A DNA stretch of 64,000 nucleotides from Cenococcum geophilum 1.58 (Eukaryota; Ascomycota; Dothideomycetes; Gloniales; Gloniaceae): contig KV748214.1 in NCBI GenBank assembly GCA_001692895.1, positions 1,027,166 through 1,091,165 of the forward strand, read 5' to 3'. Positions 10,485 through 45,074 of this stretch are shown piece by piece. The notes below the pieces were generated by a model, which ran no database searches, was not told where the DNA came from, and worked only from the letters and a program-made list of their open reading frames with translations. The first letter of the stretch is position 1. Every line of letters starts with the position of its first letter. The translations under genes and the position numbers were made by a program.

Positions 10485-10504
10485 TTACCTCAGCGAGCTC
10501 AGAC
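10485..10504 (+). repeat. Left terminal inverted repeat
   Basis: Twenty bases starting TTACC; reverse complement of 38780-38799 with one C/T mismatch. Directly inside it starts a 90-bp imperfect palindrome. Confidence 0.8.
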
Positions 10505-10587
10505 CAAGAAATCGATTGTGCGGATATAGGAATATCCGCACCGTCCGCTAAGCTGATTTAGGACGGCAATCGTTTTCTTGGTCTGAG
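10498..10587. repeat. Nested subterminal palindrome
   Basis: Outer arms of 21 bases (CTCAGACCAAGAAA... and ...TTTCTTGGTCTGAG) pair with one mismatch. Inside are a second pair, GCGGATAT with ATATCCGC (10520-10539), and a third, CCGTCC with GGACGG. The arrangement is kept in the related element at 42055-42145, which suggests a functional end structure such as a transposase or helicase loading site. Confidence 0.75.
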
Positions 10588-10734
10588 AGACTTTGGCGAG
10601 ATTTATTAGAAAACCTAAACACCGTTTATATGAGAAGACCTTATTAACTTTAACGAAATTGATCTACCCTCCCACAATACTTATTGATATAAAAATTACA
10701 CTAAATTATAGAGAAAAGCCTACTCTATAAAGCT

Positions 10735-13400
10735 ATGAGATCCTCAGCTCCTTATACCCGCGCGACGGTAAGAGAAATTTATCGCCGTAGAGGCTCTAAT
10801 TCTACCTCTACACCATAAAGCTACGCAGTAAACACCAACGCTGAACGCCTACGCCGCCAGCCCTCTTTGTAACCAGCGGATATTCTACCCACCAGTCAGA
10901 CAAAGACATTAAAGAAAGAGAAGGTTAACATTATTAGGGACCTTCTATATTAATAGGGCTGGTCTTTTTATAGGCTGGTTTTTAAGTTCTTAGAAAGCGA
11001 GAACGGGTACAGAGGCAATAGGAAGAAGAAGAAAGTAGGGGACCTACTTATTGCTTTACTAGAGGATGGGGAAATATAAGAAGAACTTGTTAACAGGGCT
11101 AATATTCATACGACGCTAGTAACCTATACTATCCGCTATATCCGGAAAGAGCTCCGCTAACTATAATTATAACGCAGCCCCTTTAATACATGGACTCCAG
11201 ATATAGAGTTTTAGGATATTAACCTTAAAAATACAGCTAAGTTTGTTTAGCAGTACAGTCCGCTACTATTCCAGCTTATTAAGAGGATATCTATACTAAA
11301 TAGAGAGGAATATAGTTAAGATCCGTATAGCGGATATATAGTTATAGTTACTTCTATATTCCTCCTAGGGTTCGCCTAAAACTCTGCAAATAGTTTTACC
11401 CATCTACTTAGTTTATATTTTTAGGCACTTAGTATAAAGCGCTATATGCTATCTTTCCTATATAGCCTTAGTCTAATTAATAGTTATATAACTCTTAACG
11501 CTAAAAAGCTTAGGCTAGCTAAATGTTTTAAGAAAGGTTTTATTAATTCTACTAGTACTTCTAGTGCTAATAACCCTTAAGAAACTAATTAAGTCTCTAT
11601 CTATTTATAATAATGTCTATATTATCTATAATAACTTTAACTATTGCTAAAAGACTTAATATTAGGTTATTGGNGAGANTAGNNAGTTNANTTCNNANAN
11701 TATNGGAAAGATNTTACGCGGAGTATATATGCCTAAAGGGGGCCTTAAGCAGTCGATGTTAAACAATACCCGTTAACTTAAGCTAGATAAGGTTGTTAAT
11801 ATAGCTAGGAATAAGTTTAATAACCTCTAGAAGCGGATATCTATAAGTTTTATTACGGACGCCATCTAATACGCGTATCCTACTACGGTTAATAGTATAT
11901 TCGACTCTAACGTAGATATTAAATATCCGCGTATACTAGTAGTTAATATTCTCCCTTATAAAAAGACAGAGCACGTAACTCTAGGACCTATTCTAGATAG
12001 CAAGGCTTCTATTAATGGCAATTATCGCGTAATAGAGAATATCTTTCTAAACCAACTGCAGTATAATCACGAAACCGCTTTTAACGACTGGCTACTCCTA
12101 GTATACAGAGATTAGAAGACCGTAAAGCTTATTTAATTATATAAAGAGAAGCGGGTTAAGGCGGAAGGTGCGTACAATAGCTATAAGTAGGTATTGCCTA
12201 TTCTAGGGCTATGGTATATGCAATTAAACTTCCTATATATAATTATACGTACGTTCTATAGGGGTAAGCAAGCCGCGTAGCAGTTTTTAACGCTCTACAC
12301 TTATATAAACCACCTAGGACGGCGTAATATTCCTAGGAAAAAGGCCCTATTTTATTATATAGAAGAGCTAATCCTCTAAAGCTTTAACGCTTATATTATT
12401 GCGTTATTCCTACTCTATATCCATAATAAGTATAATATTAAGGCAGATGGTAAGGCCGAGCGATATATATAAAACCTATCTCTATAGCAATTTCTAAAGC
12501 ATATTAAGGATATCCGCACAGCGGCTTTTTTAAGAGATATATGCCGCGATATAAATCAGCACACGTCTAATTATTTAGGGCTACCTACTAACGCACGTTA
12601 GCCAGCAGCGATGTTATCCTCTGCGGATATATTAAGCTCCGCCGCTGATAACTATAATATAGAGTTCTTTAATTATATCCGGTTCCTATAGGTTATTAAT
12701 ACTTATAAGCTTCTAAAATACGCCATTAAGTATGCAAATATTGGACTACTAAAGCGTGTAATCCCCTATCTTTGCTTATACTTTACTAGAAGCTTATTAA
12801 AAAAACTATATATATAATATGCTGATCCTATAGCAACTAGTTAGGATAAGCGCTTGCAATCTAGTGCTTTAATAGGCTATCCTTACTAATAGTTTAGTTA
12901 ACCTCTAAGGGCGGCTAGATAGCTTCTTTAAGACGGATTACCTTAATAAACTGCTAAATCTTTAACTTAAGGAGTTGCTTTAGATGCGTAGGAATTCGGC
13001 GTTTAGTATGGACGAGCTATTTAAGTAAAGTATTCTTATAATAAGTTACACTAGCGCGCTCCGTAATATTTTTAAGTGTATATTTAGTAAGTGTATAAAC
13101 AGCGAATATACAACTAAGTCTCTAGCGCTGGATATCCGCTATCTTGCAGATTAGATTAGGAAGGATTTAATTATATAATATACGCGGCGCTTAGCGGATT
13201 TTAAGGCTCCTTCGCTCCTATAGCGCGGATATAAGAAACTTACAAAGGACGGCGTAAATATATTTAATGCCTTCCTATTAACTGCAGCCGGTTTACTATT
13301 TAATCCCCTTATATATAGCTTCGGTAATACCAATAAGAATATAGAGGTACTAGGAGAAGCTGCTAAATATATTTATATAGTTTGTTGTCCTAATATTATA
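10735..13400 (+). pseudogene. DUF6589-like protein, candidate transposition protein of the large element
   Basis: A single plus-strand frame can be followed from the ATG at 10735 with frequent TAG/TAA. The N-terminal part is basic (REIYRRRG). About 11160-11220 reads 'W-T-P-D-I-E-F', and 11610-11765 reads 'YDNFNY' like blocks followed by 'GGLKQSML'; 12060-12480 has 'WLLLVYRDQKT' and 'LPILGLWYMQLNFLY'. These blocks in this order are what I know from the large fungal families carrying DUF6589, proteins of unknown function that are often multicopy. A patch at 11674-11713 contains N. The 3' boundary is uncertain. The first codons are also present in the shortened element at 42286-42430, so the gene start is shared between copies. 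Naming it a transposase is inference from position. Confidence 0.65.
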
Positions 13401-13659
13401 CCTATACCTCTGCTAATATATATAATAGTTAGTGTATAAGTTGCTTAATAAATGCTAAAAATAACAGTAATATATTATTTTAATTGCGGATATACTTCTA
13501 ATATAAGCGGAGTATCTATAGATATTCTAATTTTATGTAACAGCTCTATGCGGATATTATAAGAATTAAAAATAGTATTATAATATATAATCTTCTAAAT
13601 AAAAATATAGCAAAACTAACACCTTATACTCCGGAAACTTAACCTTTAAAATAAACTCT

Positions 13660-15635
13660 CTATTTAAATATCTTTATCTTAGCTTATGCGGATATCTTTA
13701 TATTAGCTTATATAGATATTATTATCTTAGCTTATGCGGATATTATAATATTAATTAAGTATATCTATTAAATATAAGGCAGAGACTTAATTCCTATATA
13801 TATAGTAGCAAAAAAATAAGAGCTACTATTTTATTATTATAAACTAGCAACAATAGCCAACCCATAGCAACAGCTAACTTATATCTACTTATATTTAATA
13901 TCCGGTAGCCTAGCACTATATATAAGTGTAATAATACCACGCCTTAGGAACGCAAGCTCATCCTTTATCTTACTAAGAGAATCTTTAAACTTATTAAACC
14001 GGCGATCTATACCCCAAATATCTTTCGCTATATTAGTTACCTATTTATAAACTATATTAATACGCGCAGAAATAGCGATTGCTAAATATACCCTAATAAA
14101 CCCGGTGCTAGCGGAAGCGGTAGCAGTAATAGTAGCACCTAGCGTGCTAGTAATTGGCGAAAGAGTTAGAGGAGCAGCGGTAGAGTAGGTGCCTCTACGG
14201 CTGTGCGTACTGCTATAAGTAGGAGTCTTAATAGCGGGGAAGGTCTTAGTAGGGGGAGGCGTAGTAGCGCGGGCGGGGATAGTGCGAGAATAAAGCTATG
14301 CGGATATTAGTAATATCCGTATTATTAACGCGCGGATATTATACCTTCTTAGTAAGCGTTTTAGCTGGACTATTGGCAGAAGCTAACTTCGTACGTTTTT
14401 TGCCCTAAGGTATAACCGGCTCTAGATTTAGTAAACCTTCTTATACGCGTATTAGCTAATAGAATAACAGTATACTATTAGCACGTACCTTTCCGCACAA
14501 CCTACTACCTACACAATATCTTAAGTATGTACCCCTAAAATAAGGCCTAAAGTCCTTCTTATAAACGCGATATTTATAACTATACTTCTTATATAGAGTA
14601 TATAGCGGGTTACGCAGCTTACTAAAGCTACCCTTAATATTCTAGACGTGTGTTAATATCCGCTAGCGACTTTCCTTTATATTCTCCCAAGTACTAGTTT
14701 TTAGAGTGTACTATTTATTCGCTAACGGCACTTGAATAGAAAGGCGCTTGTTTATATTTATGGTACTATAAAGATTATAAGGGCTACGGAGATTACGAGG
14801 GCTGTAGAGATTGTAAGAGTTAGCGTTATTAAGATCTTTATCTTTACCGCTATCTAAAGGTTCGCTATCTAAAGAAACCTTATAAATATTTAGTTTACTA
14901 TAAGAGGTAAATTAGTAGATAAGATATTAAAATAGTATAACTAACGCATACGATTTAATAGCTATTTTAGCCTTTAGATTTGTATTAGTAGCCTTTTTAG
15001 CCTACTTTTTAAGAAAAGAAGATAAACGAGCCTTATTAAGTCTTCTTTTAGAAGTATTAGGTAGCGGCAGTAAAGAGGCGGACGGTAAAGAAGTGGATAG
15101 TAAAGTGGTTTATAGCAAAGATACAGGTAATAAAAAGGCAGGCAGCGAAAAGGTACGCGGATTTTTAGCGGATTTCGTTCTATCCATATTTTCGTTGTTT
15201 ACTAAATCCTATAAAGAGCGCTTTGGTATATATTTTCTAAAATCACATTAGCTATAGGCATAATTTAGTATTAGAAAGCTTACTCTTTAGGAATAGAGTC
15301 TAAAGGCTTAGTAAGAGCAGCTATGGCGCGCTTAACAGCATCCTCGTTTATTTCGCGCATATTAAGTTTCTTAACTGCCTAGCTACTGTTATTCGCATTA
15401 ATATCGTTTATAGGTATAAATAAAGGTATTATAGATAGTAGAATGCTAAGGGATAGTAGATAAAATAATAATAATAAAGTTTATGGTGCGGTGCTGTAAG
15501 GTAGAAGGTTAGTAGAGGAAGAAGAGGTGCGGAGGTTAATTAAAGGTAAATATCTACGCTACTAATTTTATTAAATTAGCTTACTAACAAATAATTGCTA
15601 CTATAGTAACTTACCTTAGTAATTATTAACAGTGT
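13660..15635 (-). pseudogene. Unknown minus-strand gene of the large element, tandem copy 1
   Basis: This is the left unit of a roughly 2-kb tandem duplication; both units open with the same AAATATCTTTATCTTAGC block at their left ends. On the minus strand, coding-like sequence begins near 15430 (PLFIPINDINANNSS), passes a basic, Lys/Ala-rich section near 15060-14950, a conserved block around 14700-14500 (TWENIKE, RNPLYTLYKKY, DFRPYF, LRYCVG, LCGKV) and ends in a Lys/Arg/Asp-rich stretch near 14050-13950 (KDSLSKIKDELAFLRR) that could form a coiled coil. I do not recognise the family. Stops fit Q/W codons hit by RIP. Nothing in it looks like a DDE or tyrosine recombinase site. Confidence 0.5.
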
Positions 15636-16845
15636 AGATATATAAATATCTTTATCTTAGCTTATACGGATATCTTTATCTTAGCTTATACGGATATTAT
15701 AATATTAATTATATCTATTAAATATAAGGTAGAGACTTAATTCCTATATACGTAGTAGCAGAGAGGTAAGAGCTACTATTTTATTACTCTAAACCCGTAA
15801 TAATAGTTAACCCGCAGTAATAGCTAACCCGCAGTAACTGCTAACTAGTATCTACTTAAATTCTATATCTAGCAACCCAGCGTTGCGTGTAAGTGCTATA
15901 ATACCACGCCTTATAAACGCAAGCCCATCCTTTATCTTACTTAGAGAATCTTTAAGCTTACCTAACCGGCGATTTATAGCCTAAATATCTTTTACTATCT
16001 TAGTTACCTATTTATAAACTATATCAACGCGTACGGAAATAGCAATTGCTAAATATACCCTAACATTTTCCGTGCTAGTGGGAGCGGTAGTAGTACCAGG
16101 AGCAGCACTAGGCGTGCTAGAAATTAGTAAAAGAGTAGAAGGAGCAGCGGCAGAACGGGTGCCCCTACGGCCGCGTATATTACTACAAGTAAGAGTCTTA
16201 AGGGAAGGGGAGGTCTCTAGAGGGGGGATAGTGCGGGTATAAAGCTATACGGATATTATACCTTCTTAGTAGGTGTTCTAGCTAGACTACTAGTAGAAGC
16301 TAATTGCGCACATTTTTTATACTAAGGTATAACCGGCTTCAGTCTTAGCGAACTATCCTATATACGTATTAGCTGATAGAATAATAGTATACTATTGGCA
16401 TATACCTTTTTGCACAACCTACTACTTAAGCAATATCTTAAGCACGTACCTCTAAAATGTAGCCTAGAGTTCTGCTTATAAACGCGGTATTTATAGTCTT
16501 ACTTAACATATAGAGCGTATAGCGGATCGCGCAGCATACTAGAGCTACCCTCAATATTCTAGACGTGGGTATATATCCGCTAGTAAGCTTCCTTTATATT
16601 CTCTTAAGTACTAGCTTTTAGGGTATACCATTTATTTGCTAACGGCACTTAAATAGGAAGGCGCTTGTTTATGTTAATATCTAACGTTATAGCTTAGGCC
16701 GTTTACGTACTATAGAGCTTATAAGGGCTATAGAGATTATAAGAGGATAGAGGAGGGCTTTTAGGAGAGTTGGCGTTATTAAGATTATTCTCTTTATTAT
16801 TATCTAAAATCTCTAACATTTCTATTGGGTTACTATAAGAGGTAA

Positions 16846-17080
16846 TATAAGCTTTGCAGTGCGAAGAATTGAATAAACGACTTGATTGTGAATGTAGCTC
16901 TAAAGCGTCTATATATACACGAAGTGGGTAACAGGAAGATGATAACGATAATGCACAATTGCCGAGGTAGACAGCGCTTACAGTCGGTAATAGGTAATGA
17001 AAATAGGTAGTGAGATATACGATATAAAACATACAAGGTAGTGAGCCACAAGATAATGCGAGCCTCGGTAGTCGGTTACA
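16846..17080 (-). repeat. 3' LTR of copia-2
   Basis: 235 bp; differs from the other LTR mainly by transitions. The related solo LTR at 44074-44265 shares both ends. Confidence 0.92.
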
Positions 17081-17089
17081 CACCCCCCT

Positions 17090-17410
17090 AGATTTGACAG
17101 TATAGTTAAAGCTGTAGAAAACAAAAATGAAGGTAGAGGTTATACCAAAATAGGAAATTTAGATACAATTTAAGAGTAGCAAAGGGTAGGGTAATTAAAA
17201 TGGCATATTGCGAATATCGCGGATATTGCGGATATCGCGGACATTGTGAATGGAGTCAATTGATCTGATGTCGAATATCCACCAAATTTAATTGCTTTAT
17301 CCATGCCTCGTGCTTTTAACAGGGTAAGATCTTAGTAAGGCCGTCGGCAGGCATCTTATCTATAGGGACCCATTAGACGTCGATCTTTTTATCTTAGACT
17401 TCCTGTCTCA
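17090..17410 (-). pseudogene. copia-2 pol C-terminal end, downstream of the hAT insertion
   Basis: The minus strand from about 17400 reads the end of copia RNase H: DKMPADGLTKILP, then a KHEAW and QLNLVDI block. It continues exactly the reading frame that stops at 20859. Near 17195-17250 there is a short run of CGCGGATAT-like repeats before the 3' LTR. Confidence 0.75.
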
Positions 17411-17418
17411 GCCAGTGC

Positions 17419-20400
17419 CAGACTTGCTAATAAACAAACAATTCAAACCATAGATCTTTGGTTTGGTTAATTGGATATTTTAGAGCTTCAAGCTTGTTTA
17501 TTTCGTTTGGTTAATCAAACTAGCAAACGGTTTGGTTAGATTTGACTGTTTGGATAGATTTATATACATTTTTGCGCGACGGTAAGAGGATCTAGGAGCT
17601 CTACGCTACAATCTAGTGATAGGCGTTTGGTGTTGTAATGCTCGCGCTAAGCTTAAAAGTCAAGAGGGAACATAATTAATTACCCCTAGTATTAACAACA
17701 GTAAGGTCTAATTCTATTAATCTAAAGCGGCAAATCTATTAATATTAGTTACTATAATAATATCTAAACGTTATATAAGGATAGCTTACCGTAGTGTGGA
17801 TTAAACCTTGTCGTCGCTCTGGCGGTTCCTAGAGAAGGTCACGTGACCCTAAATTTAATGCAGAGTTTTCCTATGTAAAAGATGCCTAAAAAATCAATCG
17901 CCTGCTATAACGGCAGCAATATCGACCTAGCTGTATAGCCAATCCTCCCTGTACATCATTGTATGTATACAAAACAGCTCCTAAAGTGGGAGATCGCGCC
18001 TCTCGATAGCGCCAAAGTTGGAGGCTAGAATTGAAAATTTGGGTAGGACGTTGCTCTATTTAAAAGTCAGCAAACCAAATTAAATGGCGCGATCTCCGGT
18101 TAAGTCCGAACCAGTGTACGATTTCCTTATTAGGAAAAGTCATTTTCTGCGTTTAATAAAGCCGTTGCGGTTTTAGCTTCGCGTACACTATAAGGCTGCG
18201 ATAATATTAGGTTGCATTTATAAGCGATAAGGCTTAAGCATATCACTAAGCTTACTAAACGATTGTTTGCAGTTGCAGCTTAACGGTAGTATACTTAGTA
18301 TATTAAGCGCCATTTGACTAAGATTAGGAAACTTTATTACCATTATCCTCTAGTATAAAAACGGATCGTGAGCCAGTAGGTGATCTTCTATTAGTAGATT
18401 GAGTTTCTTCCACTGCTCGTACTCGTCTTCTTAATCGTTAAATAAGGAAGGTGCTATAGTAAAGGCGGTGCCTATAAAGCTTCTAATAAAGTTATTAATA
18501 TTAGATTGCAAAGGCTGATTTTTCTTAGAGGCTTGCCCTACTAACCGTAGCTTCTTTCCTTTATACTTAAGCCAGAGCTTCTAAAAGGAAGCGTTACAGC
18601 TAGCTATCCAATTAGGCCTCTCTTTCTAGTTATTTTAGCAGAATCGCTTAAGGTTAGGGTGTAGTAGGTAAGCTATATAGTAGATAGGCGTCTAGTTAAG
18701 CGCTATATAGTATTTTTAAAGCTTCGCCCACCCGCGATTAATATTAATTTTATAGTGATCCTTAATTACCTCTTAATTAGGATAATCCTCTGTCATCGCC
18801 TTAGTTAATTAAGCTTTAGCTTCTTCGTAGTGCCTTATTAAAAACTCTATATAAGGGATAACTTTCTATATTGCGCCATTGCGCCCAGCCTTACCTCTTC
18901 CTTTAAGCTTAAGTGTAGCTTGCTAAAGCGGCTTAAGAAGCTAAATATATTATTTAATAACGTCCCAATTATAAGAAGTAAGGCCGCCGACTTATACGTA
19001 GAGAGGTCAATTAAGAGGCTTCTAATGCGGATTCGGATTCTTTCTACGTTGTTAACTAGACTTAATCGTTGCGAGCTTCCTATTCCATTTATTAATATCG
19101 TGCTGCATTATTAAGGAAATAGGGCCTTGAAGCTCAACAGCCCGTTTAAATGTTATTAAATAACTATTCCACCTAGTCTTAATAGGCTTGATGAGCTCGA
19201 GGACTTTAAAATCGGCGTACGGTAGCATAGCGTTTTCCTTTCGCTAGAAGGCATAGAACTGTTTATACTTTTATGGCAAATAGATTAAATAGATAAAATT
19301 AATAAGAGTTCTAAGCGGGCCTTTCTTTCGCCACTCCTTTAGGAACTACTGCTCTTCCTATAGAAGTCTTAGTTTTAATTAAATTAATAGTATAGGAACG
19401 CCTACCTACCGTTAAGTTCTCATCACCGTTCTTAAATGCATCTTTATCGGTTCCAAATAGACTTAATTAAGCTACTAGATTAAATATATAGGTAGCGCAC
19501 CGCACTTAACGTTGCTCTTTATTAAATCTAAGCTCTACCGCAAGGAAGTTAATGCAGGTGTTGTTATTATAGGCGTTATCTATAATAAACCAGCCAATTT
19601 GACTACTAAGATTATACTTAGCAATGGTATTGCCAATAATATTGTGGTAGTTATAGCCGCTATATAGGCTAAGCTGCTCCGGTAGAGCAAGCATAAAGTC
19701 TTAAATCTGGCCTTAATGGTCCAAATAGTGAACGCAGATACTAGTAAGAGCCTTCTTCTTATTACGCGTTGTCCAGCTATTAAATGATATATAAAATCTT
19801 GTTATTAATTGCGCCAGTTCTTCCGTTACTATACCTTTATTACCATTATATTTAGCAAGAACTTAACTGTAAATTAACTCGTGGTTTTGGTATAGATTAA
19901 GCTCGGCGTCTTTGTTTGCGGCCGCAATTAGGGCTTAAAATTCAGGTCGCTCGACTTCTTGTAGAGGGTGGTTTCCGGCGGCGATCCATAGTATAACTGC
20001 TTATTTGAAGATATTGGGGTCGTAGGACTTAATAAGCTCATTAGTAACTACTTGTAATACATAGTGGGTTTATTAAATCTGCTCTAGAACAGTTAAAGCC
20101 TTCCGCTTTTAAGATATTATATAATTAATAGGACCACAAGAATTAACCCAGTGGCTATCTATATCCTTAGCAAGGTGTCCTACCGCAGAAGTAGTAGCTC
20201 TACTAGTTTTATATAGGGTCACCTTAATCTTATGCAGATGGCAATATTTGTATAAAAAAACGGTTGTTTTCTTACCAAATCTTTACTAAAGCCGCCAGCT
20301 ATGGTCCTATATAAAGCTCAGAGTTCTAAGAAGGTCTTAATAAGGCCGTTAATATCTCTCTACATGGTCCCAATCAATGCCTTCGTATTCGTCCTAGAGG

Positions 20401-20850
20401 GGGGTTAATTCTGATAAGGTATCGGAACCTTCACAGGCTTTACTGGGCGTAATTACAGGCGTGTTCTCTGCTAAATCAACAGGGCCAGCTTTAGTAAGAT
20501 AGGAAGATATAATATAGGCAGTATAGCGATAGGAATTGGTGGGTAAAAGAGGAGATTTTAGAGGGTTAAGTTAGAAAGACGCGTTTGGATATTTATTTTC
20601 AGCGCGTATATTATATTACGATCATAGTATATTATAGAACTGCCTAAAACTCAACCACCAAGAACCTCCCCTTAACCAAAAAATAATACCTATATCTTAT
20701 ATATCAAACGAGCAAACCAACTCAATCAAACAGGACAATATAGGGCTTGATTGACTACTAAAATTAGACCTTTAGGCTTGATTGGTTGTTTGATTACAAA
20801 GTAAATAAGTAAACAAACTAGCAAACGCGGTTTGTTTATTAGCAAGTCTA
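17419..20850 (-). mobile_element. hAT DNA transposon
   Basis: 3,432 bp with 21-bp terminal inverted repeats (17419-17439, 20830-20850) starting CAGACTTGCTAATAAAC, the outermost base mutated to T on one side. It is flanked by an exact 8-bp target duplication, GCCAGTGC (17411-17418 and 20851-20858), the length typical of hAT. Subterminal regions are rich in CAAAC/GTTTG motifs (for example 17437-17560 and 20700-20840), as is common for hAT transposase binding. Excising the element and one duplication rejoins a continuous copia RNase H reading (HIDVY...HWLRQEV), which confirms the borders. Confidence 0.94.
18150..20310 (-). pseudogene. hAT transposase relic
   Basis: Near 20290-20170 the minus strand reads YCHLH followed by GHLAKD, fitting a BED-type zinc finger. 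At 19694-19506 a 62-codon open stretch contains GYNYHNIIGNTIAKYNL and GWFIIDNAYNNNT, the central block of fungal hAT transposases around a catalytic Asp. Between 18800 and 18180 I read the C-terminal dimerisation region (SALNP-like start, EDHLLAHD, and a final LSLIAYKC block). Order and spacing match the family. Many TAG/TAA interruptions make this copy inactive. Confidence 0.8.
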
Positions 20851-20858
20851 GCCAGTGC

Positions 20859-25830: not shown

Positions 25831-26585
25831 GGTAAATTAGTAGATAAGACACTAAAAGAGTATAGCTAATATATACGATTTAAAGGCTATCTTATACTAA
25901 ACATTTTGCGCAGCAATTTTATTAGCCTACCTCTTAAGAGAAGTAAAAGCATAATAAGGATTAAACTTCTTAGAAGTAGTAGGCGATAAAGAAATAAGCG
26001 GCTTAAAGGCAGGCGGTGAAGAGGTAAGTAGTAAAAAAGTAGGCGGCAAAGAGGTAGGCAGTAAAGAGGTAAGCGGATTTCCGGTGGATTTCGCAATAAC
26101 CTTATTATGGTGCTCTACTAGATCCGATAAAGAGTGCTTTAGTACATATTTCCTAAAATTATATTAGCTGCAGGCATAATTTAGTATCAGAAAGCTTACT
26201 CTTTAGGTAAAGACTCTAAAGAATTAGTAAAAGAAAGGGCGTCCTTAAAAGCGTCCTTAATTATTTTATCGTTAACGTCGCGTATATTAAGTTCCTTAAC
26301 TAAATAGCTGTCGGATGTATTTAGAGGTATAAAAGAAGGCATTATAGATAGTAGTATGCTAATAGACAGTAGATGAAATAATAATGATAAAGTTTATAGC
26401 GCGATGCTATGAGGTAGAAGGTACGGAGGTTAATTAAAGGTGAATATCCGCGCTGTAGATTTTATTAAATTAGCTTACTAATAAGTAATCGCTACTATAG
26501 TAACTTACTTTAGTAAACATTAACCACCTTATATATACTTATTCTAAGCTGCGCCTAGTTTAGAGGGTAGAGATTAAGCATTAGC

Positions 26586-26980
26586 CTGTAAACCCTAAGC
26601 CTTAGAGTTTCCTAGGAGCGGAGATCTAGTATCGCAACTTAAATCCTAAGCCTTAGGATTTTCTAAGAGCGGAGATCTAATACTGCGTTATAAATTCTGA
26701 ATTTCCGGATTTCCTACTACCTGGGAACTGGTGCTACGCCGCGGATATTAAACTTTGGAATTTTTCATAATTGGAGATCTAGTACTATATTACAAATATT
26801 AAACCTTAGGCCCGTCTAAAAGTTAAGACTTAGTGCTATACTATAAGCTTTAACACTTAGGCTGCCCTAAGGATTTAGATTTAATGCTATGCTATAAGCT
26901 TTAATATCCAGATTGCTTTAAGGGCTAAGACCTAATGCTGCGCTATAAGCTCTAATATCCGGCGCTTTAGCTACGGCCTA
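26586..26980. repeat. Tandem repeat, seven to eight units of 51 bp
   Basis: Units start at about 26586 and repeat every 51 bases (one is 52), ending near 26980 in a partial unit; neighbours share blocks such as GGAGATCTAGTA and CTATAAGCTTTAA. The period is a multiple of three, so it could encode a 17-residue repeat on either strand, but both frames now contain stops. It lies inside the large element between tandem copy 2 and the gypsy insertion. Confidence 0.8.
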
Positions 26981-27065
26981 TTTATACTTGCATTACTACT
27001 AATATTAGCAAATAAATGTTTTAGCGTCTTTTTTAAGGTTATACTGCTAGCTAGTGCAGTACTAG

Positions 27066-27490
27066 TGTTACGGACGCTTTAAGTACGATGTTACGACTAC
27101 TTAGAGAAGAGTCGGAAGAAGCTAGTTGGTTAATTCAGGCACGGTCCAGAATAGAGCCGGTAGAACTATGTGACGAGGAATGGTAACTGAGGTCATATAA
27201 TGTGCTACGTATTAAACAAGAGGAACGAGAGGAACTCACGTACCTTACGTATAAGACGTACATTACGTACAAGAAGGATTTTATAGGAGTACAGTTGTGT
27301 ATTTAAGGACCCTTAGTCCCTACCTAGATAGTTCCTTCCTTATAGTGATTCTTAGAATACAATTAGAGTTAATCTATTAGGCAACCACTCCACTAGTTGT
27401 TATTATATTGTTGACTTTTATACTTACATTTCCTACACACCTAGCCCATTAACGAACCTATCGTAGTTCTTACTATAAGGTTCCGTTATA
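27066..27490 (+). repeat. 5' LTR of gypsy-1
   Basis: 425 bp. Differences to the 3' LTR are nearly all transitions. A TATA-poor internal segment contains repeats of TTACGTA (about 27238-27275). Confidence 0.93.
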
Positions 27491-27534
27491 CAATCACTAC
27501 CCAGTTATAGTATCAATATAAGAAGTTAAACAAC

Positions 27535-30530
27535 ATGCCACTAAAAGCAGCCACTATAACGCCATTAACGGCAGCAACTACTTTAAGGACAGGAGGTGAT
27601 ACCAGTATGGCAGATACTGACTTATAGCAACCTATAATGGTCAGACAGCTATAGGAAATAGTTAACTAGCTAACAGCTAATAATATAGTATTAGAAGAAA
27701 GACTTAACGGGATAGGAGCAGCAAAAATTAAGCTACTATTAATTAAGAGATTTACAGGAGAGAGGTTAAAGCTTAAAGGATTCCTTACGCAGATGCACTT
27801 TAAGGTCTCACAGGAGGGAGTAAAGTTACCTATACCCGTGGATCGGATAGCCTACGTAGGACTATTCTTATTAGGAAAAGCACTTAAGTGGTTTAAACCT
27901 TACCTTACGGAGATATAGGCAAATGGAATAACGACCACTAACTAAGACGTGCGATTTATGTTCTTAAGTTGGGAAGGATTCGTAGAATAACTTACGCAGA
28001 TATTTGGAGACCTAAAAGGAATAACTACAGCGGAAAGAAAACTCCAAAACCTTATATAATAAACTTTAGCAATTAAGTATACGATATAGTTCCAGACACT
28101 AGCAATGTAAGTAGAGTGGAATAACAGGGCGCTTATAGCACAGTATAAATAGGGACTTAAGGCTAAAGTCTAGGACGTGATTATCCTAATAGAAGATGCG
28201 GAAACCCTAAGGGAACTAATAAATTAGGTAATTAAGATTAACAATTAGATCTACTAAAGGGAACAGGCTAAGAAAGGCTAAGATAGAGTTTTATAGTTAT
28301 ATAAGGCGCAGAGTACGTAACGATAAAAGCTAAGTTAGAAACTATGGTATAGCGCAGAGCTAATAGACCTAAGTGGTACTAAAGAAGCCTATAAGAGATG
28401 GAGTAAACCATAAAAACCTAGAGGATAAGGATTAAGTAATTAAAGGTCTAAGGAGCAGAGGCTAAATCAAGGATCTTAATAGCAGAAGATATTTAGGCGG
28501 ACTCCATAACAAGAGAAATAGTTTAAAAAAGGAGCTTATATAAATTACGGAAAACAGGGTTATTACGTTAAAGACTATAGAAGTGGGTAGAGTTATTATA
28601 TAGTAAAGGGCACGAGACTAGTAGACGATATACATATATAAAGGGACGATAATATACTACGAGGAACAAAAGAATGTTTAATTAGAAGTTTTGCGTTTTG
28701 TTATAATAACGCATACTAAATTTATAAGGACGCTAAGTATGGCGCAAGCTATTAGCTATAAGAGCCAGCACTTATAGGATATAGAGGAACCAACAAACCA
28801 GTTTATAGATCGGATATTAAGGACGATAAATTTAACCTAGGCGAAATATTCCGTGACGATAAGGCAATAAGAGCCGCTTACTAGGAGTGAGCAGACCTTA
28901 GAGATATTATACTAGAAGTAGAGGATAATTCTATTACAAAATAAGGAACATTAGTAGGGATTAAAACCCCACTAGATACGATGTCTATCGCTTTATAAGA
29001 CGCAAGAGAAGTAGGACAGTAAACCACTTTGGCACTTAATAAAGGCAAAAGGCTAAAGGCTTAAGATTCTTAAGACGAGATAAGGTAAGCTTAAGGACCC
29101 ATAACAGATAGAAACCGATAGAGCAGAGTAATAGCTCAGTTTAAAGACATACGAATGAGCTTGGGATAAGAATTCCTAACGGTATAAGATTCTTAAGACG
29201 AGATAAGTGAGATCTAGGACTCTTAAGATAAGATAAGGACACTAGTTAAGCCTAGTTAGACTAAGGCAGGAGCTAAGCTTAAGTTAGAAGTAAGCTTAGG
29301 ATTAAAGAATCTAAGGGACCAAGAATTTAGAGTATAAATTAGGACACCTATAAATAAGAGGTAAAGAGCTTCTTTATAGATTAGAGAATCTATAGCGCAA
29401 ACAGCGATTAGACTAGGAGATAGATATATAGACCTAAAAGACTTACTAGGGGAGCATAGTATTCAGCCTAAAGATTAAAAAGTTAATACTAAGATTAAGA
29501 AATAAGACGACTTTAAGGATTAGAGCGTAAGGCGCAAACTAAAAGAAACCATAGAAGAGTTTAGGCAAAGAATTATTATATAGTAAGAATAGAAACTAGA
29601 TAAAAGATCTAGCATATTGGGACGTATAAAGGACAGAGCACTAGTACAAAGAATTACTAATAGGCTAAGAGTAGGCACACTAAGAGCTAAGTGGCTTACC
29701 GAACTAGAACAAGAAGAGGATTTAGGGATTCCTACTAGGTTTAAGGAACGATATACTAAAGGCTATTACGACGCAGCAATAAAGAGATATTTTCTTACGG
29801 ATAAGCTATATACACTTAGGCAGCTATATTAAAAGTGGTATAGGCAATAACACAATAATAAATGGGAAGATTTCTATATGTGGTTAGATAAAAAAGTTAT
29901 TTAGGACCACCTAATTATAGAGAAGGCCATGACGTATATTAAAGGAGCCTTAATTATAATATTAAAAGATCTAGAGGAATGTTTAGAGGACTGGAGAAGC
30001 GAGAGATGTATTTTAGTACCTGCGAATAAAGTTACAACGTTTAGATTAGCATGATAAAGGTTTAAACTTAGGGACGAAGACGAGCTAAAAGTTAACCTAA
30101 AGCACCTAGTATACTATACGATATTATGGATTATATGCGTGGATAATATATACGAAATGCATAAGAATCTAAAAGAAAAGAATTGGAAATACCCTATAAG
30201 GATATACTAGATAACAGACGAGCAATAGTATAGGAATGCTAAATATATATATAGATAGCATCCAATAGAGGTCTAAGAGGAAGGAAGTTTAGTACTTTAA
30301 CCAGGAAGATTCCTTACGGAAGAATACTTAGACGGATAATAGTAGTGGGAATGCCTAGAAAACACGTGTCTATAGTATATTAAAGATAAAAAGCGAACTA
30401 GGCATTAGCTAAAGAGCGAGCTAAGTATACTAGGATTAAGCAGCTAATAGTTGGGAAAAGTAGAGGCCTACGGGACTAGAGGGAGCTAGTAGTAGAGCCT
30501 TAGACCCTTAAAGGAATTTAAGGATGACAC
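27535..30530 (+). pseudogene. gypsy-1 gag and downstream spacer relic
   Basis: A frame with an ATG at 27535 runs through a gag-like region. A zinc knuckle is readable near 28540-28590 as NYGKQGYYVKDYRSG, with Cys and His replaced by Tyr through C-to-T changes. Between the knuckle and the protease there are about 1.9 kb of Lys/Glu/Gln-rich coding-like sequence, including a 71-codon open piece at 29617-29832, which I cannot assign. That spacer is unusually long and is shared with gypsy-2. Confidence 0.65.
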
Positions 30531-30539
30531 CTAAATTTA

Positions 30540-33500
30540 TGAATTAATTGGTAAAATTAGCAGTTTAAAGCGCTAATAGATAGTAGAGCAACGCGAAACT
30601 ATATCTTACTAGCAGTAGTTAAGAGAATAGGACTACCTTATAGATAAAAGGAGTAACTTTACCTATTAGTTACGATTTTAGGAGATCTAATAACCTATAG
30701 AGGAGGGATTATTAATCTTAAAATAGGACCTATTTAGATAACTATTAAAGGAAGATAAATTAAGATATCTTTTAATATCCTACCATTAGGATGGGATAAG
30801 GTAGTATTAGGTATGCCTTAGTTATAGGAATATAATTTAAGGATTAATTGGATTATAGGTTAGGTCGATATTAGAGATACTTAACGCCGTAAGATGTAAT
30901 AATAAGCTAAGTTAGTATAGTACTAAGTAGGAGCAACCTATAAAGAGACAGAAAAAGGACTAAGCTATGTACTAAAGAGATACTATAAGTATAGTAAGAA
31001 ACTATAGTTACTGGAAAGTAAAAAGCTATTAAAATATATAGTATGGGATTATAAAATAGAGTTAGAACTAGGAATAAGTCTAAAGTTCTTTCTAATCTAT
31101 AAGCTTACCGAAGAAAAAGGTAGAGCGTTAAAAGAGTTTATTTAGGAAAATCTACGAAAGGGATATATTAGACTATTGTAGTTATTAGCGGGTTATCTAG
31201 TACTATTTATACTAAAGAAGAATGGTAAACTAAGGCTGTATATCGACTATAGACAGTTAAACAGCATTATTAGGAAGGATAGGTATCTTTTACCCTTAAT
31301 TAGCGAAATCTAAGATAGGATAGGTAATACGTAAATCTTTATAAAGATAAATCTAAGATGGGCGTACTATTAGATTAGGATTAAGGAAGGCGATAAATAG
31401 AAGGCAGCCTTTAGGTTAAAGGAAGGACTATATAAACCATTAGTTATATAATTTGGGCTTATAAACGCACTAGTAATATTCCAGAAGCGTATTAATAATG
31501 TATTAGGAGAATACTTAGATGAATTTGTTATGGTATATCTTAACGATATTATTATTTACTTAATAACTAAGGAAGAACACGGAGAATACGTTAAATAGGT
31601 CTTAAAGAGACTATAAGAAGAACAGATGCTAGTAGCAATTAAGAAATATGAGTTCTTTACTAGGAAGACCGATTTTATTAGATTTATTATTAAACTAGGC
31701 CAACTTAGTATAGATCTAAAGAAGATTAAGGCTATAGTNAATTAGTAGNAACTAGANAACGTTATANAGTTAANATTNTTTNTAGGGTTTTGNAATTACT
31801 ATAGAAGGTTTATAGCGTAGTGGTTAAAGAATATTAAGCTATTTACGCGGTTAATAAAGAAAGAAGAACTATAGGTATAGGGAGAGAAGTAAAGAGAACT
31901 CTTTAAAAAAGTTAAAGAGTTGTTTACCTAGGAGCCAGTTCTTAAGATCTATTAACTAGGACTAGAGACGGTTATAAAAACAGATGTATTAGACTATGTA
32001 CTAGGGGTATACTTTATATAAAGGCATTAAGATGGATGGCACCTAGTGGTATACTATAGTTGGAAGATAATACCACTAGAGTTAAACTATAACATCTACA
32101 ATAAGGAGTTATTAGGTATAGTTATAGTATTAAAAAAATAGAGAGCATTCTTGCAAGGCATAGAGAAACTATTTATAGTTAAGACGGATTATAAGAACCT
32201 AATAGGATTCCTAATAATAAAGGAACTTAACTAAAGATAGGTTAGATGGGTAGAGATACTTACGGAATACCATTTTAAGATTTAGTATACTAAGGGTACA
32301 GATAATACGCGGGCAGATGCTCTAAGCCGTAAAGCTAAACTATAAAATAAGGAAAAGCCATTAGGGGCTTTATTGCGAAAAGATATAGACGGATTAATTA
32401 GGTACAATTATCCGAAAATTATAGTAACTTAAGAAGATAATAAATTAGAGAAAGTCTACGAGACACTAGAAAGCTTTTAGGTATAAAGAATTTTAGAAGT
32501 ATAGCTAAAAGATCTATAGACGGATATATATAAAAATTGAGAAGTAAAGTATATCCTAAGAAGCATAGCAGAGTAGTTTGTAGAGGACTTCTATAAGAGA
32601 CTAATTTAAGGACATAATAGAGCTACGGGCTTAGTGTTAAGACTCTAGGAGGAGTACATTATTAACGGAATTTAGAGGATAGCTAGAAAAGTTATAAAGG
32701 AATATTTAAATTATTAAAGGAATAAACTAATAAGGTATAAGCTATATAGAGGGCTATAACCTATTAAAATACCAGAGAAACTATGGGAGGTTATATTATG
32801 GGACTTTATTATTAAGTTACTAAAATTAAAAGATCCTATTACCGGACAAGATTATAACGCGATCTTAGTAATAGTAGATAAGCTTACGAAGTGGGGATAC
32901 TTTATAGCATGTATAGAAGAAATCTTAGCGGAAGATATTGCTAAAATTTATATTAAAGAAGTGTTTATAAGACATGGAGCACTAAGTAAGATTATATTGG
33001 ATAGAGATCTAAGATTCGTAGCAGTATTCTAGGAAGTATTCTTAGCGAAGCAAGGAGTTTAAGCAGTAACTTCTACTATATATTATCCGCAGACAGACGG
33101 TTAAACGGAAAGGTTAAATTAGACGCTAGAGCAGTACCTAAGGCATTATATTAATTATATATAGAACAATTGGGTATTGCTATTACTAGTTATACAGTTT
33201 ATATATAATATAACACCTTAAGAAGGAATAGGCATATTACTATTTAAGGCAAATTATAGATATAAGCTAAGAATATTATTGTTATTATAGCAAGTGAAGA
33301 AAATAAGTAGTACAGCTAAAAAGAGAATAAAGACATTAATGAATCTTTATATAGACCTTATGGAATTAGTAAAGAAAGTATAAGAGAGAATAAAAAAGTA
33401 CTATAATGCTAAGAGATCTAAGGGACCAGATCTTAAGGAGGGAGATAAAGTGTGGCTACTATATAAAAATTTTAAGAGTTAACGACTAAGTAAGAAATTG

Positions 33501-33870
33501 GACTACGTTAGACTAGGACCTTTTAAAATTAAGAAAAGAATTTTACTAGTTATATTAAGTTAAACCTACCAGCTAAAATAAAGATCTACCCTATATAGCA
33601 TATCGTAATACTAAAGCCAGTATATAGGAATATTAAGCTACCAGTCTATAAAGCAGACATATATAGAGGATAAGAAAAAGACGAATAGCAAGTATTAAAG
33701 ATTATTAATTATAAGGATATTAACGACGAAACATGGTACGAGGTTAAGTGGATAGGCTATACTAAGACTACCTAGGAGCCACTAGAGAATTTAAAGAACG
33801 CTATAGGAAAGGTATAGGAGTATCAAAAGAGATTAGGTTAGGCAGTATTAATAAAAAAGGATCGCTAAAG
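30540..33870 (+). pseudogene. gypsy-1 pol relic: protease, RT, RNase H, integrase, chromodomain
   Basis: Protease-like block at 30560-30870 (VVKRIGLPY, then LGMP near its end). RT at about 31060-31700 with YLNDIIIYL at the YxDD position, one Asp lost. RNase H follows to about 32340. Integrase runs about 32560-33500 with recognisable Asp blocks (DFIIKLLKL, ILDRDLRF) and the Glu block. A chromodomain lies at about 33690-33840 (YEVKWIGYTKTT, EPLENLKNA); this domain is known to steer chromovirus integration to heterochromatin. Ambiguous bases occur at 31739-31790. The frame stays continuous but carries dozens of stops. Confidence 0.88.
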
Positions 33871-34537
33871 AATAAGTTACCTAAGGGGGACCTAAGAAGA
33901 GTAGTTGCCGAATTACTTAGATCTGTTTCCTTCTCTATTAGAGAAGAATCCGTTCTTTTATTACTTAGTTCCTATAAACCTTATTCTATAAGTTTTTACT
34001 CCTTAGAATAAACCTTTTTATAAACCTTCTTAAGACGAAGCAGACGAGTAAACGCTGTAATTTAAGTATCTAGGGCCTTTTATTCCGCATTACGGGAACG
34101 TTCTAACTTAGCAAGGGCTTATGACAGTTTACTATCTAGCCATATAGCAGTAGATTAAATATAAAACCCTAAGATAAATTAACTAGGGAACTAGACGACT
34201 ATTAAGAGTAATAGGTCGCGTATATTTAGCATTAGAAGTAGAGCAAACGTCATAGAATAAATAAATATTCGCTTTAGTATACTTTAAGTAAGAGGATGGT
34301 TGTCGCAAAGATAGGTTCGCTAACGTAATATAAACTAACCCCTCTTTTAAACAACGAGAACACGGAGACGGTATAATCTTACTAAGAAATAATATTGCAG
34401 TAACAGTGCGAGCACGACGTTAGGCGTGTAAAGAAGAAATTGCTTTAGGTATAATAAGCAATAATATTAACTAAATTAATTAAACGGATATTACACCTCT
34501 AGTAAATAACTTAGAGATATTTTAAATCTTTAAGGAC
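33871..34537 (+). pseudogene. Conserved coding-like tail after the gypsy-1 chromodomain
   Basis: Past the chromodomain a plus-strand frame stays readable for more than 200 codons, with stops only at plausible Q/W positions, until the polypurine tract (for example NIAVTVRARR near 34395-34420 and NNLEIF near 34510). The same sequence is present inverted in gypsy-2 at about 45075-45800. I do not recognise a domain. It may be a C-terminal extension of pol or a separate small ORF. Confidence 0.45.
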
Positions 34538-34560
34538 GAAGATAAAGAGAAGGGAGATAG
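34538..34560 (+). promoter_or_regulatory. Polypurine tract of gypsy-1
   Basis: A purine-rich run ending AGAGAAGGGAGATAG lies directly before the 3' LTR, as needed for plus-strand DNA priming. The same tract is found inverted at 45052-45074 in gypsy-2. Confidence 0.7.
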
Positions 34561-34985
34561 TATTACGGACACTTTAAGTATAATGTTACGACTACTTAGA
34601 GAAAAGTTAGAAGAAGCTAGTTAGTTAATTTAGGCACGGTCCAGAATAAAGCCGGTAGAACTATATAACGAGAAATAGTAACCAAGGTTATATAATGTGC
34701 TACGTATTAAACAAAAGGAATAAGAGAAACTTACGTACCTTACGTATAAGACGTATATTACGTATAAGAAGGATTTTATAGGAGTACGGTTGTGTATTTA
34801 AGGACCCTTAGTCCTTACCTAGATAGTTCCTTCCTTATAGTGATTCTTAGAATACAATTAGAGTTAATCTGTTAGGCAACTACTCCACCAGTTGTTATTA
34901 CGTTGTTGACTTTTATACTTGCATTTCCTACACACCTAGCCCATTGACGAACCCATCGTAGTTCTTGCTATAAGGTTCCGTTATA
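34561..34985 (+). repeat. 3' LTR of gypsy-1
   Basis: 425 bp, more mutated than the 5' copy at several CpA/TpG sites (start TATTACGG instead of TGTTACGG). Confidence 0.93.
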
Positions 34986-34990
34986 ACTAG

Positions 34991-36309
34991 AGGGGAGGAT
35001 TAGCTAAAGAGACTGGTTTAGAGTCGTATTAGCACTAGCTATATAAGTAAAGGTAGTACTTCTTACTTAAGCAGAGCGGTAGGAAGTGCTAAATTTACCT
35101 CTAGTTAATTCTGCCGGCTAGAAGAGAGCTAACTCTATAGTGGCTAATATATTAGCCCGTAAGTCTACGCGTTAGAATAAGCTTTCTAACTATACTAGCG
35201 AGCCACTAGGCGAAGTATATAGTTATTAAGCACTAATATATAATTAATTAGACGAACTATTTAAAAGCTGCTATAAGCGATAAGCCTAAGTTAATAAATA
35301 AGCTGCCGAACCACTACACCGACCCTATAGATATCCATCCACACCCGCTATATAGGCTAATTCCCTTTTAGTATCCTGCTGCTAAGTTACTATAAAGGGT
35401 GCTATAATGCGGCAGTTTGCCGTCGCCGTTAATACTAAATTACCGCAGATTGCTACTAACAATAGACTATTGCCAGTAGGATTATTAATAAGGCCACGTT
35501 AATTCGTAATAACCGCACGTAGAGATCGCTGCGGAGATCGAACACTACGCTATAAACTAGCGCCACCTATATTCAAGCTAATAATACTATTAGACTTTTG
35601 CTACGGAGCTTAAAGGCTATACTATAGATTAATACCTAGGTTCTAAGATATAAACTAAGGTAGCAGAGAATCGTAAGGATGGTGCGGAGCTATATTAAAA
35701 AGCTGTTAAGAATAATAAAGGCGCTATAGGGAGTTATTAGGATGCTAAAGGTTAAGTTAAGGGTTCTATAGATATATACCAGATAATTTTTAAGTGGGTA
35801 GCTATGTATCTAGAGTATACGGATATTAAACATCTAGCCATTAAGATAACTGTAATAGAGTGGCATATATAGTCTAGGACCAGTTCGCCTATAAGTTTTA
35901 GGTTAATGCAAGCTAAGATATTTAAGACTTAGTTATATTAGTTTGCGAGCTAGATGCTAATAATAGCTATAAGGGCGGTAATACTTCGGTTTACAACGGT
36001 TAATTAAGACTAGCACTCTTTATAGTTAATATACTAATAGGTCCCTATTAACCCACTAATAGTAGAGGCGTCTATAACGAGCTTCTAGATATAGCAACAC
36101 GTCTACTAGATTGCGATATAGCCTATAAAACACTAGTACTAAAGTATTACGTTTCTTCCTTATAAATAAAGCGGATAAGCGTGTCTACTTTATCTCCTAA
36201 GAAGCTGTAATCCTATTCGGGTAATATCCGCTTAAGGCCCTTATAAGTTAGCGGAGGTTAAATATAGAGCACGCGGATTTAATTGTTAAATATAATATAA
36301 CTAGAAATT
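34991..36309. other. Unrecognised segment of the large element right of gypsy-1
   Basis: Joined before the gypsy insertion to the DNA left of 27061. Both strands show coding-like stretches (for example plus strand 35790-35950) but I can match neither to a family. It lies downstream of the helicase gene, so it could be that gene's 3' region, a separate gene, or cargo. Confidence 0.4.
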
Positions 36310-38400
36310 AGACTCTAAACTGCATCCTAGTATATTATATTAAGCTATCCTTTAATCCACTTCTTAACACTTACAAATAGATCCTTTAAGTACTTACTCT
36401 TCGCAATATTCCTAGTATATAGTGTAACAATATCATACTCTTTATAAGCCTATAACAAATTATTGTAATTAAAGCAACAGCATAGACCTTTAGATAACGG
36501 ACTTGTCTCCTTATATGGCTTAAGCAGAATATTACATAGACATCCAGTAGCTTTATTTGCGAGCTCATATAATATATCTAGAAGTACCGCCCGTTTCTCT
36601 ATATTAGTCTTCACCCTCTTTTATTTTTCTATATACTTAATTGGTAGGGCTAATAATGTTATATTCTTATTAAGTATTTAATCCTCCTCCTCCTAAGCAG
36701 ATACCTGCAAGATAATATTACTATTAATTATAACGAATAAAGCTAGATCGCTGGCGAAATCCGCTACCCCATCCTCCTATATCGCCATCTTAATAGTAAT
36801 AAAGTTATGACCGAGTCGGGTAGATAGAGAGGCTATAGGTTTTTAAGACTTTTGCTTTAGCGGTGTAATATCCATAAGAGCACCCTTATACCAGTCTTTA
36901 ATAAGGATAATTATATATCCGGTAATACTATCGCGTTAAGCAGCCCGTCTAAATTACTACAGTATTATATTTAGGCTTTTATTAGGATGGTAACCATATA
37001 TAATAGAATAGATAATATCTAGAATATCCGCACTATAGGCTAGGGCGTCCAACATAATAAGAATGCGGGTAGGTAAGTCTTTTGTATAAAAATTTTAATA
37101 CTCCCTACTTTTATTAGATTTAGATAATATTATATAATAACTCCGCACTGCTATTTTGGCCTGCTTTATAGTATAGCCCTTAGTTATAAGCTATAAACGA
37201 ATAGTATTTATATACCCACGGATATAATTTTTAGCATAAAAAAAGATAATTATCTTAGGAATTAATTTAGGACTTAAAACCTTCCGTCCCTTTAGCTATA
37301 CAGTACCTCCTACTAGATTTTAGATCCGCCCGACTAATTAATAAATAGAGGTAGCGGATATCCTACTAGGCACTACGGGCGTTTGGCTAGATAATACGGA
37401 TATTTTTTTAGACCCTGCGGATATCTGGCTAAGGGTCACAGATATATAATCCTCCTCTATTACCGCCTCCTTAAATGCCTCTTTAATAATAAAAAATAGT
37501 GCCTTATAATTATTCTTATCCCTCCTCTTAATATAGCCCCTAATAATAGATAGGTCGGGCCAATTAATATCTATTTATTTAAAATCCGTTATACTCTAAT
37601 AAAACCCTACTAGCTTTATTACCTTTACATATATCTCCTTATTAAGTATTATAGTATATATAAACTACGGCACTGTTAGACTAAGTAGTGATTAAACCTT
37701 AAAGAGCTGTGCGTAATAGGGCCGGAAGCTCTTACCCTAGTTGGTAACTAGATAATACTTATTAATTATAACTAAGGAAATATGCGAGCGAAAAGCGGGC
37801 TGAGTAAGGATATAGTGGAACCGTTTACTTAATAGTAACTCTAGTAATACTAGAACATATATAAACCGACCCGCCTTAATATATTTTAGGATATCCGCAT
37901 ATATAAATACGGGATTTACTCCTAAAATAGCCTATATTTTTAACAGCTGCTCCTCTCTAATTGCGTTTAGAGGCAATATAATAATAGTAACGGAAGCTCG
38001 AACCAATAATAGAATCGCCTATATTATTATACTCTTACCCTATAATATCTTCGCCGCTAGAAACAAGTCCCTCCACCTATATATTACCCATCTTAACACC
38101 TTAATTTAACTAGGTCGTCCGTTGTACGGATATAGAAGCTTAATAGCTCTATCTATCGCGCTTAACTATTTATCCTTACTTGCCTCCCGTAAGGCCAGAA
38201 GCTTATCTTATATATCCCATAACTGCCTCTCTACTAGGGACGTAAGATCCTCCCATATACGATTATCTAGCTTTTACGAGCTCCGCGAGACCTACTAGCG
38301 TTCCCATTTAACTATAGTCTTCCGACCCCAACGACTAGTGTTTTTCTTCTAAGCTATAGTGGTTTTCTATACGGATATAGCGTCTAGTAATAGTGGAGGC
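36310..38400 (-). pseudogene. RecQ-like DEAD/DECH-box helicase of the large element
   Basis: One minus-strand frame of nearly 700 codons, broken only by stops, reads the superfamily-2 motifs in order. About 38060-38000 contains a Walker A relic ending GKS and then IIIQAILLL (motif I). Around 37960 is LPLNAIREEQL (Ia); about 37780 LVIINKYYLV sits at motif II (DECH expected, acidic pair read as NK). Then GKSFRPYYAQL, and in the C-terminal lobe IPKIIIFFYAKN (IV), TRILIMLDALAYSADILD (V, near 37050) and HPNKSLNIIL (VI region, near 36970). A Cys-rich patch follows near 36510-36470. RecQ-type helicases occur in fungal subtelomeres and inside some mobile elements; here it lies 0.4 kb from the right inverted repeat, pointing toward the centre. 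I infer a role in element DNA processing. Confidence 0.8.
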
Positions 38401-38779
38401 ACTCTAGGCTAAGGGAGGATATTTTTAAGGAAGGACCTAACTATAGCACCTATTAGGTGTTATAATAGCTTTAAGTAGTAGATATCTATATATCTATATA
38501 GTTTTATCTATATTAGTAGACTATTTAATAAGATATAATATATGCTTAGGCTTTTAATAATACGTTTTTTGACTTTAACGAAATTAATATTAGGACTAAG
38601 TAGTAGCCGTATAATAAAATTTATACTATTTAGAAGCCCTAAGTCTTAAAAAAAAAGTAACTACGGGGTTTAATAATAACGCGTTGTGTAAATAAATAAA
38701 TTAGATATCCGCAATCTCAGACGTAATTTTGCAATTCGGAAGACGGCGTAGGTTATTCCGATGCTAGCTAAAAAATCGC

Positions 38780-38799
38780 GTCTAAGCTCGCTGAGGTAA
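38780..38799 (-). repeat. Right terminal inverted repeat
   Basis: Inverted match to 10485-10504 (19 of 20). About 70 bases further in, an ATATCCGC motif near 38705 mirrors the GCGGATAT at 10520. Confidence 0.8.
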
Positions 38800-45051: not shown

Positions 45052-45074
45052 CTATCTCCCTTCTCTTTATCTTC

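Follow-up and report, generated by a model that had tools for sequence, protein, structure and literature searches.

A RIP-decayed, helicase-bearing DNA transposon of Cenococcum geophilum, probably of the AcademH lineage, with a dispersed sequence word

The window analyzed in this work is a stretch of 64,000 nucleotides of Cenococcum geophilum 1.58 (contig KV748214.1, positions 1,027,166 to 1,091,165), and its positions 10485 to 38799 hold a large DNA transposon, once mobile and now dead, that has decayed by repeat-induced point mutation (RIP). The element carries a gene of the DUF6589 family and a gene for a RecQ-type helicase, and it is probably a RIP-inactivated member of a family of helicase-bearing cut-and-paste DNA transposons, most likely the AcademH lineage. 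Judging by its sequence, DUF6589 is the likely transposase of this family. A short word, GCGGATAT, is dispersed along the element and makes it more than a member of a described lineage. This word, a hairpin at the left end, the size of the family and a young subfamily go beyond a preliminary description of the same DNA.

Results

The ends of the element

The element is bounded by terminal inverted repeats (TIRs) of 20 bp that agree at 19 positions, the lone mismatch being C/T, and the abutting 9-mers, GTACTAGAC on the left and GTACCAGAC on the right, are identical at eight of nine positions with a T/C mismatch (Table 1). The inverted ends and the 9-bp target duplication with a RIP-type mismatch claimed in the preliminary description are thus upheld; a scan of the window for TIRs with a duplication returned eight pairs, seven of them within a long inverted gypsy pair and the eighth being this element, and none of 20 first-order Markov controls contained any such pair. 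RIP indices are strong in the region around the element. Leaving out the copia and gypsy retroelements nested in it, the element's own DNA amounts to 11.4 kb.

At the left end the DNA is predicted to fold into a branched hairpin that overlaps the TIR (-35.2 kcal/mol, z -9.1), a fold that was equalled by none of 200 shuffles; the same region of a shortened copy of the family in the window gives z -3.6, and the right end folds weakly (z -1.9, with 9 of 200 shuffles as good). The shortened copy keeps both end regions, and no right TIR or duplication was recognizable in it. A 12-bp minisatellite array lies just left of the element (9524-10066), and related sequence is found inverted in the shortened copy (42580-42842).

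Copies of the family and their mobility

The family searches covered the 177-Mb genome. The TIR pattern, with at most two mismatches, was matched 807 times and the reversed pattern used as a control was not matched; DUF6589 gave 102 scored matches among 274 candidates, and internal stops are present in 94 of the 102. From the first 100 places listed, nine TIR pairs were chosen by eye, five of which have a 9-bp duplication with no or one mismatch. Three copies of about 12 kb contain both genes in convergent orientation, and their duplications are TGCGAGGTC (no mismatch), ATGGACAGA/ATAGACAGA (one mismatch) and TACTCTAAC (no mismatch); two short copies, of 2188 and 1819 bp, have 9-bp duplications free of mismatches.

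Empty sites were found for two copies. The copy C10 lies in a repeat, and all of the 40 scored matches to its joined flanks cross the junction with no net change in length; the six C10 empty sites that were read are all gapless and show a single TACTCTAAC. For the copy C4, 38 of 40 matches to the joined flanks cross the junction, and the remaining two are the flanks of the copy itself. The mobility inferred in the preliminary description is borne out by these empty sites and by the other duplications. In the stretch between the two genes, the three full-length copies (L009-L014) differ by transitions and transversions at ratios of 419:1, 435:3 and 438:2, as would be expected if almost all of the change between them since they spread came from RIP.

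The two genes had been seen together in a single element, and their association turned out to be a true linkage and not a matter of unrelated contexts. A convergent DUF6589 match is located within 30 kb of the helicase gene in 26 of 40 scored copies of subfamily 1 and in 27 of 40 of subfamily 2, when about 0.035 DUF6589 matches are expected near each helicase from their density. Since the convergent linkage is present in both subfamilies, the pair behaves as a stable unit over deep divergence.

The DUF6589 gene

The gene that faces inward from the left end matches DUF6589, as had been claimed (PF20231, E 1.2e-27 in Pfam, with X placed at each stop), and after a change of frame the match continues with E 1.8e-4, under the family cut-off. 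An alignment (A2) was made of 68 out of 120 DUF6589 proteins, picked by hand and mostly the longer ones; D311 is conserved in the 41 rows of 41 that reach this position, D469 in 67 of 68, and D758 and E762 in all 68. In A2, D311 and D469 each come after strand-like stretches, as the catalytic aspartates of DDE enzymes do. Because further D, E and H columns are likewise well kept, the choice of D311, D469 and E762 as the triad is one that we infer. The conserved D-D-E, together with the presence of DUF6589 in all three full-length copies and in the young subfamily, makes this protein the likely transposase; the earlier proposal stands on this ground, but not on the argument then given for it, that the start of the gene is kept in the shortened copy. 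Six DUF6589 relatives carry organism names, which we take to be those of Ascomycota.

The helicase gene

In its decayed state, the helicase gene of the window gave no match in Pfam. Five relatives that are 67-74% identical align along it, and helicase relatives carry PF00270 (DEAD), PF00271 (Helicase_C) or both; the solved structures closest to one of them, P0004, are RecQ helicases (best 4tmu, E 3e-21). The NCBIfam RecQ models gave partial matches, far under their full-length cut-offs, and for this reason we label the gene RecQ-type and not RecQ proper. Given that the gene resumes beyond the gypsy element (Table 1), the latter must have landed inside it. A RecQ-like helicase facing inward from the right end, as first described, is therefore supported by relatives and structures, but its extent had to be corrected, the gene being longer and having the gypsy within it. 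The helicase is encoded by a separate gene that converges with DUF6589, each facing inward from its own end. A tblastn search of plasmids (180 records) yielded, among the five matches listed, only sequences less than 32% identical, four of them annotated as RecQ; scans of viral contigs with P0004, with the DUF6589 relative P0001 and with the TIR gave nothing of use.

A young subfamily

Compact copies that are 99.9% identical were found at the ends of contigs C41, C43, C88, C9 and C149, and constitute subfamily 2. Summed over overlapping pieces, this element is about 6.4 kb long; it has a related left TIR, TTGACTCAGCATGCTCAGACC, and open frames with no stops for a DUF6589 protein of 939 aa and a helicase of 854 aa (one base unread), the latter about 39% identical to P0004. 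The flanks at the C88 and C43 contig ends have TTGTTCGCG in common, which we read as both duplications of one copy that was split by the assembly. These young copies (L023, L024, L026, L027 and L028) are at contig ends; the assembly seems to break within near-identical copies, so the number of young copies may be underestimated.

A further, nearly open DUF6589 element (L025, C75:752000-761900) has frames of 291 and 614 aa and is rich in GCGGATAT; within the 9.9 kb read there was no helicase match.

A word dispersed along the element

In the element's own DNA there are 26 occurrences of GCGGATAT, where the trinucleotides of that DNA would predict 1.5; they are spread over both strands, and both genes contain some of them. 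The copia has two more and the gypsy has none, and of the two found in the remainder of the window one belongs to the shortened copy. For the window as a whole the count is 30, and 100 shuffles gave a mean of 2.1 and a maximum of 8; the top over-represented words of the copia, the gypsy and the flanks have at most five copies each. When 8-mers were ranked by observed/(expected+0.5), GCGGATAT came first in the window copy, in the copies C1 and C4, in all four subfamily-2 pieces and in the C75 element; the copy C10 has it in second place, and the copy C1b, read over its left 9.8 kb, in fourth; in the short copies L017 and L019 minisatellite words rank at the top, and GCGGATAT is present three and two times. 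The subfamily-2 pieces hold 17-22 sites per 4.6-5.3 kb (22 in 5.3 kb) with 0.4-0.5 expected, and the C75 element has 13 in 3.4 kb. Genome-wide there are 15,430 occurrences (about 0.09 per kb), below the 26,725 of the reversed control, and the window element has 2.3 per kb.

That the word is not functional, and is left behind by protein constraint, codon bias, RIP or ancestry, is in our opinion quite improbable. In synonymous-codon shuffles the observed number of sites was reached in none of 2000 trials for two sets (8 against a mean of 0.76, and 5 against 0.69), in none of 3000 for three others (11 against 1.15, 8 against 1.18, and 5 against 0.51), and in 2 of 3000 for a sixth reading set (3 against 0.26). 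Protein constraint would be in line with the observation that the coding sites mostly read ADI, ISA or DIR, and that some of them are shared among the three DUF6589 genes compared (DIR in all three, ADIGL in two and YPR in two); however, the 27 sites of these genes fall in 23 alignment columns, of which 20 are occupied in one gene only, the N-terminal columns being poorly aligned. In addition, non-coding DNA of the young element contains 7 sites in 1058 bp, elements whose frames are open carry the word too, and the low counts in the neighbouring copia and gypsy likewise speak against such a by-product. A search at the peptide level, in 125 proteins, gave 278 readings of the motif against 113 in reversed sequences, with a median ratio to shuffles of 1.04; the ratios are 3-5 in P0001, P0004 and other close relatives, and 0-1.5 in six organism-named proteins. 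This search carries little weight, residue conservation being a confounder.

Two specific readings were rejected. An origin of GCGGATAT from RIP was ruled out by the same word in open-frame elements, and a polar Chi-like signal was ruled out by the lack of strand bias, given that the young subfamily has 19 coding sites and the sense strand shows GCGGATAT at 8 of them.

Other features of the window

The preliminary description reported two copies of an unknown gene; the two copies are real and form a 2-kb tandem duplication, whose unit may or may not be a gene. Of the 12 indels that separate the two units, 7 have a length divisible by three, if anything a hint of coding, and the transversions by codon phase (19/17/17 and 21/28/15) show no clear phase. 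Pairwise comparison of the three full-length copies gave 20 indels, 10 of them with a length divisible by three (3/3, 2/7 and 5/10, in pairs that overlap), and phase says little there because almost all differences are transitions. A Pfam search of six frames over 3.1 kb of one copy found nothing above the cut-off in the tandem stretch, and one sub-threshold match (E 0.006). The compact young subfamily does without this stretch, its two gene matches being usually 590-719 bp apart.

The copia sits within the second tandem unit, and both nested retroelements, already recognized as a copia and a gypsy, are backed by their domains (Table 1). In the copia, a hAT dimerisation domain (18176-18352, minus strand; PF05699, E 2.1e-9) suggests that the remnant of a hAT element is nested there as well. 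The gypsy has another copy in the window, inverted and located at 44700-53997, with pieces 79-89% alike to 27063-34912. Beside the element, the minus strand of 39689-41510 is GC-rich with less decayed open frames, the first of which has a sub-threshold match to the acyltransferase family PF02458 (E 0.006).

Table 1. Location of the features of the element and of its shortened relative in the window
Feature	Position	Strand	Evidence or remarks
Left 9-bp target duplication, GTACTAGAC	10476..10484		8/9 vs right copy
Left TIR	10485..10504	+	19/20 vs right end; pattern matched 807 times genome-wide
Subterminal branched hairpin overlapping the TIR; inner stem formed by two GCGGATAT sites	10498..10587	+	DNA fold
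DUF6589 gene, candidate DDE transposase, with stops and frame changes	10735..13450	+	PF20231; P0001 67-70% over 11729-13397
2-kb tandem duplication, first unit	13661..15630		May or may not be coding
Tandem duplication, second unit, first part	15639..16845		Interrupted by the copia
Nested copia long terminal repeat (LTR) retroelement, 235-bp LTRs, duplication GGTAA	16846..25830	-	RVT_2, E 2.9e-27, minus strand
Tandem duplication, rest of second unit	25831..26524		72% to 14905-15630
Match to repetitive tail of helicase relative P0005	26541..26924	-	68% over 128 aa
C-terminal end of helicase gene, past the gypsy	26935..27065	-	P0004 residues 1132-1173; P0007 residues 742-785
Nested gypsy LTR retroelement in helicase gene, duplication ACTAG	27066..34985	+	RVT_1, RT_RNaseH, Ty3_capsid
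RecQ-type helicase gene, main part, with stops	34986..38348	-	P0004 64% over 1157 aligned columns
26 GCGGATAT/ATATCCGC sites scattered over the element, copia and gypsy excluded	10520..38712		26 vs 1.5 expected in 11.4 kb
Right TIR	38780..38799	-	19/20 vs left end
Right 9-bp target duplication, GTACCAGAC	38800..38808		8/9 vs left copy
Shortened family copy, minisatellite-like middle, right TIR unrecognizable	42043..43212	+	86% to both end regions

Discussion

The helicase of AcademH belongs to superfamily II, and in AcademX a nuclease (XPG) takes its place. AcademH, that is Academ with a helicase, reportedly goes back to Kojima (2020). The preliminary description knew of no described transposon class with this pair of genes, a statement that is probably wrong. 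In the portions of the sources available to us, AcademH is presented as those Academ transposons that encode a helicase and duplicate 9-10 bp of their target (PMC10045372), and as a low-copy lineage in Basidiomycota, Ascomycota and Mucoromycota (PMC10799480). The element described here is likewise a fungal DNA transposon that encodes a helicase, of 854 aa in the young subfamily, and generates 9-bp duplications. It is unlike AcademX, for which the same portion of PMC10045372 gives duplications of 3 or 4 bp, in its 9-bp duplications. The dispersed motif and the left-end hairpin have no counterpart in those portions of the AcademH descriptions.

Other assignments were considered. The element could belong to a helicase-bearing superfamily distinct from Academ, in which DUF6589 would be an unrelated DDE transposase. 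DUF6589 is named in no paper of the literature searched, and a Pfam search returned DUF6589 for every one of the 68 proteins in A2 and any other family for at most two of them; however, a helicase together with 9-10-bp duplications in fungi is what the available text on AcademH describes (PMC10045372, PMC10799480), and sharing both would be a coincidence, so we regard this possibility as rather unlikely. KolobokH, a lineage of DNA transposons that likewise have a RecQ helicase and, according to the part of its description at hand, are restricted to fungi (PMC9587614), is extremely improbable; its duplications are the 4-bp TTAA in that same text, in contrast with the 9-bp duplications of varied sequence found here, on account of which Kolobok is excluded. 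The helicase of the element, a separate convergent gene, also counts against KolobokH.

Several observations weigh against the assignment to AcademH, against DUF6589 as its transposase, against the family as drawn here or against the proposed role of GCGGATAT. The assignment was made by description, from the helicase and the length of the duplication, and a search of the A2 profile against solved structures gave no relevant match to DUF6589. The family has hundreds of ends, unlike the low copy number given for AcademH in the part of the source available. Of the nine TIR pairs, three have no duplication and one has no right end in the DNA read. A convergent DUF6589 is missing from the 102-match list for 14 of 40 and 13 of 40 scored helicases, in counts for which this list is a lower bound. 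Finally, 28.8 kb of DNA that belong neither to the young copies nor to the C75 element contain 10 GCGGATAT, a density above the genome average.

In our reading, DUF6589 would be a DDE transposase with an RNase-H fold that cuts the TIRs and inserts the element with a 9-bp stagger, and the helicase may assist by opening or resolving either the end with the hairpin or the product of strand transfer. The short copies would be mobilised in trans. The GCGGATAT sites along the element would act as a self-mark, bound by the transposase, the helicase or a partner.

The over-representation of GCGGATAT is a matter of counts, and its binding by a protein that the element encodes is putative. We tentatively propose, at somewhat less than even chances, that the element is marked over its whole length, genes included, by this lineage-specific word, that its own protein uses the mark to tell members of the family from the rest of the DNA, be it for transposition, for unwinding or for anti-silencing, that the mark shapes the synonymous codons of both genes, and that its sites turn over between subfamilies. 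A related case is VANDAL21 of Arabidopsis; in the part of the report available, a short motif recognized by VANC is highly enriched in this transposon family and rare in others, and the motifs are mainly non-coding and arrayed in one orientation, with binding shown (PMC5735166). Like the VANC motifs, GCGGATAT is over-represented in a family-specific manner, the other families sampled being the copia and the gypsy of the window; unlike them, it is dispersed, present also in coding DNA and on both strands, and a putative binding site.

Should DUF6589 prove to be the transposase of AcademH, a role would be assigned to a fungal family of 'unknown function'. In addition, the coding sequence of these elements appears to be shaped by a signal at the DNA level, and GCGGATAT provides a testable handle on transposon self-recognition, or on resistance to silencing, in a genome with RIP.

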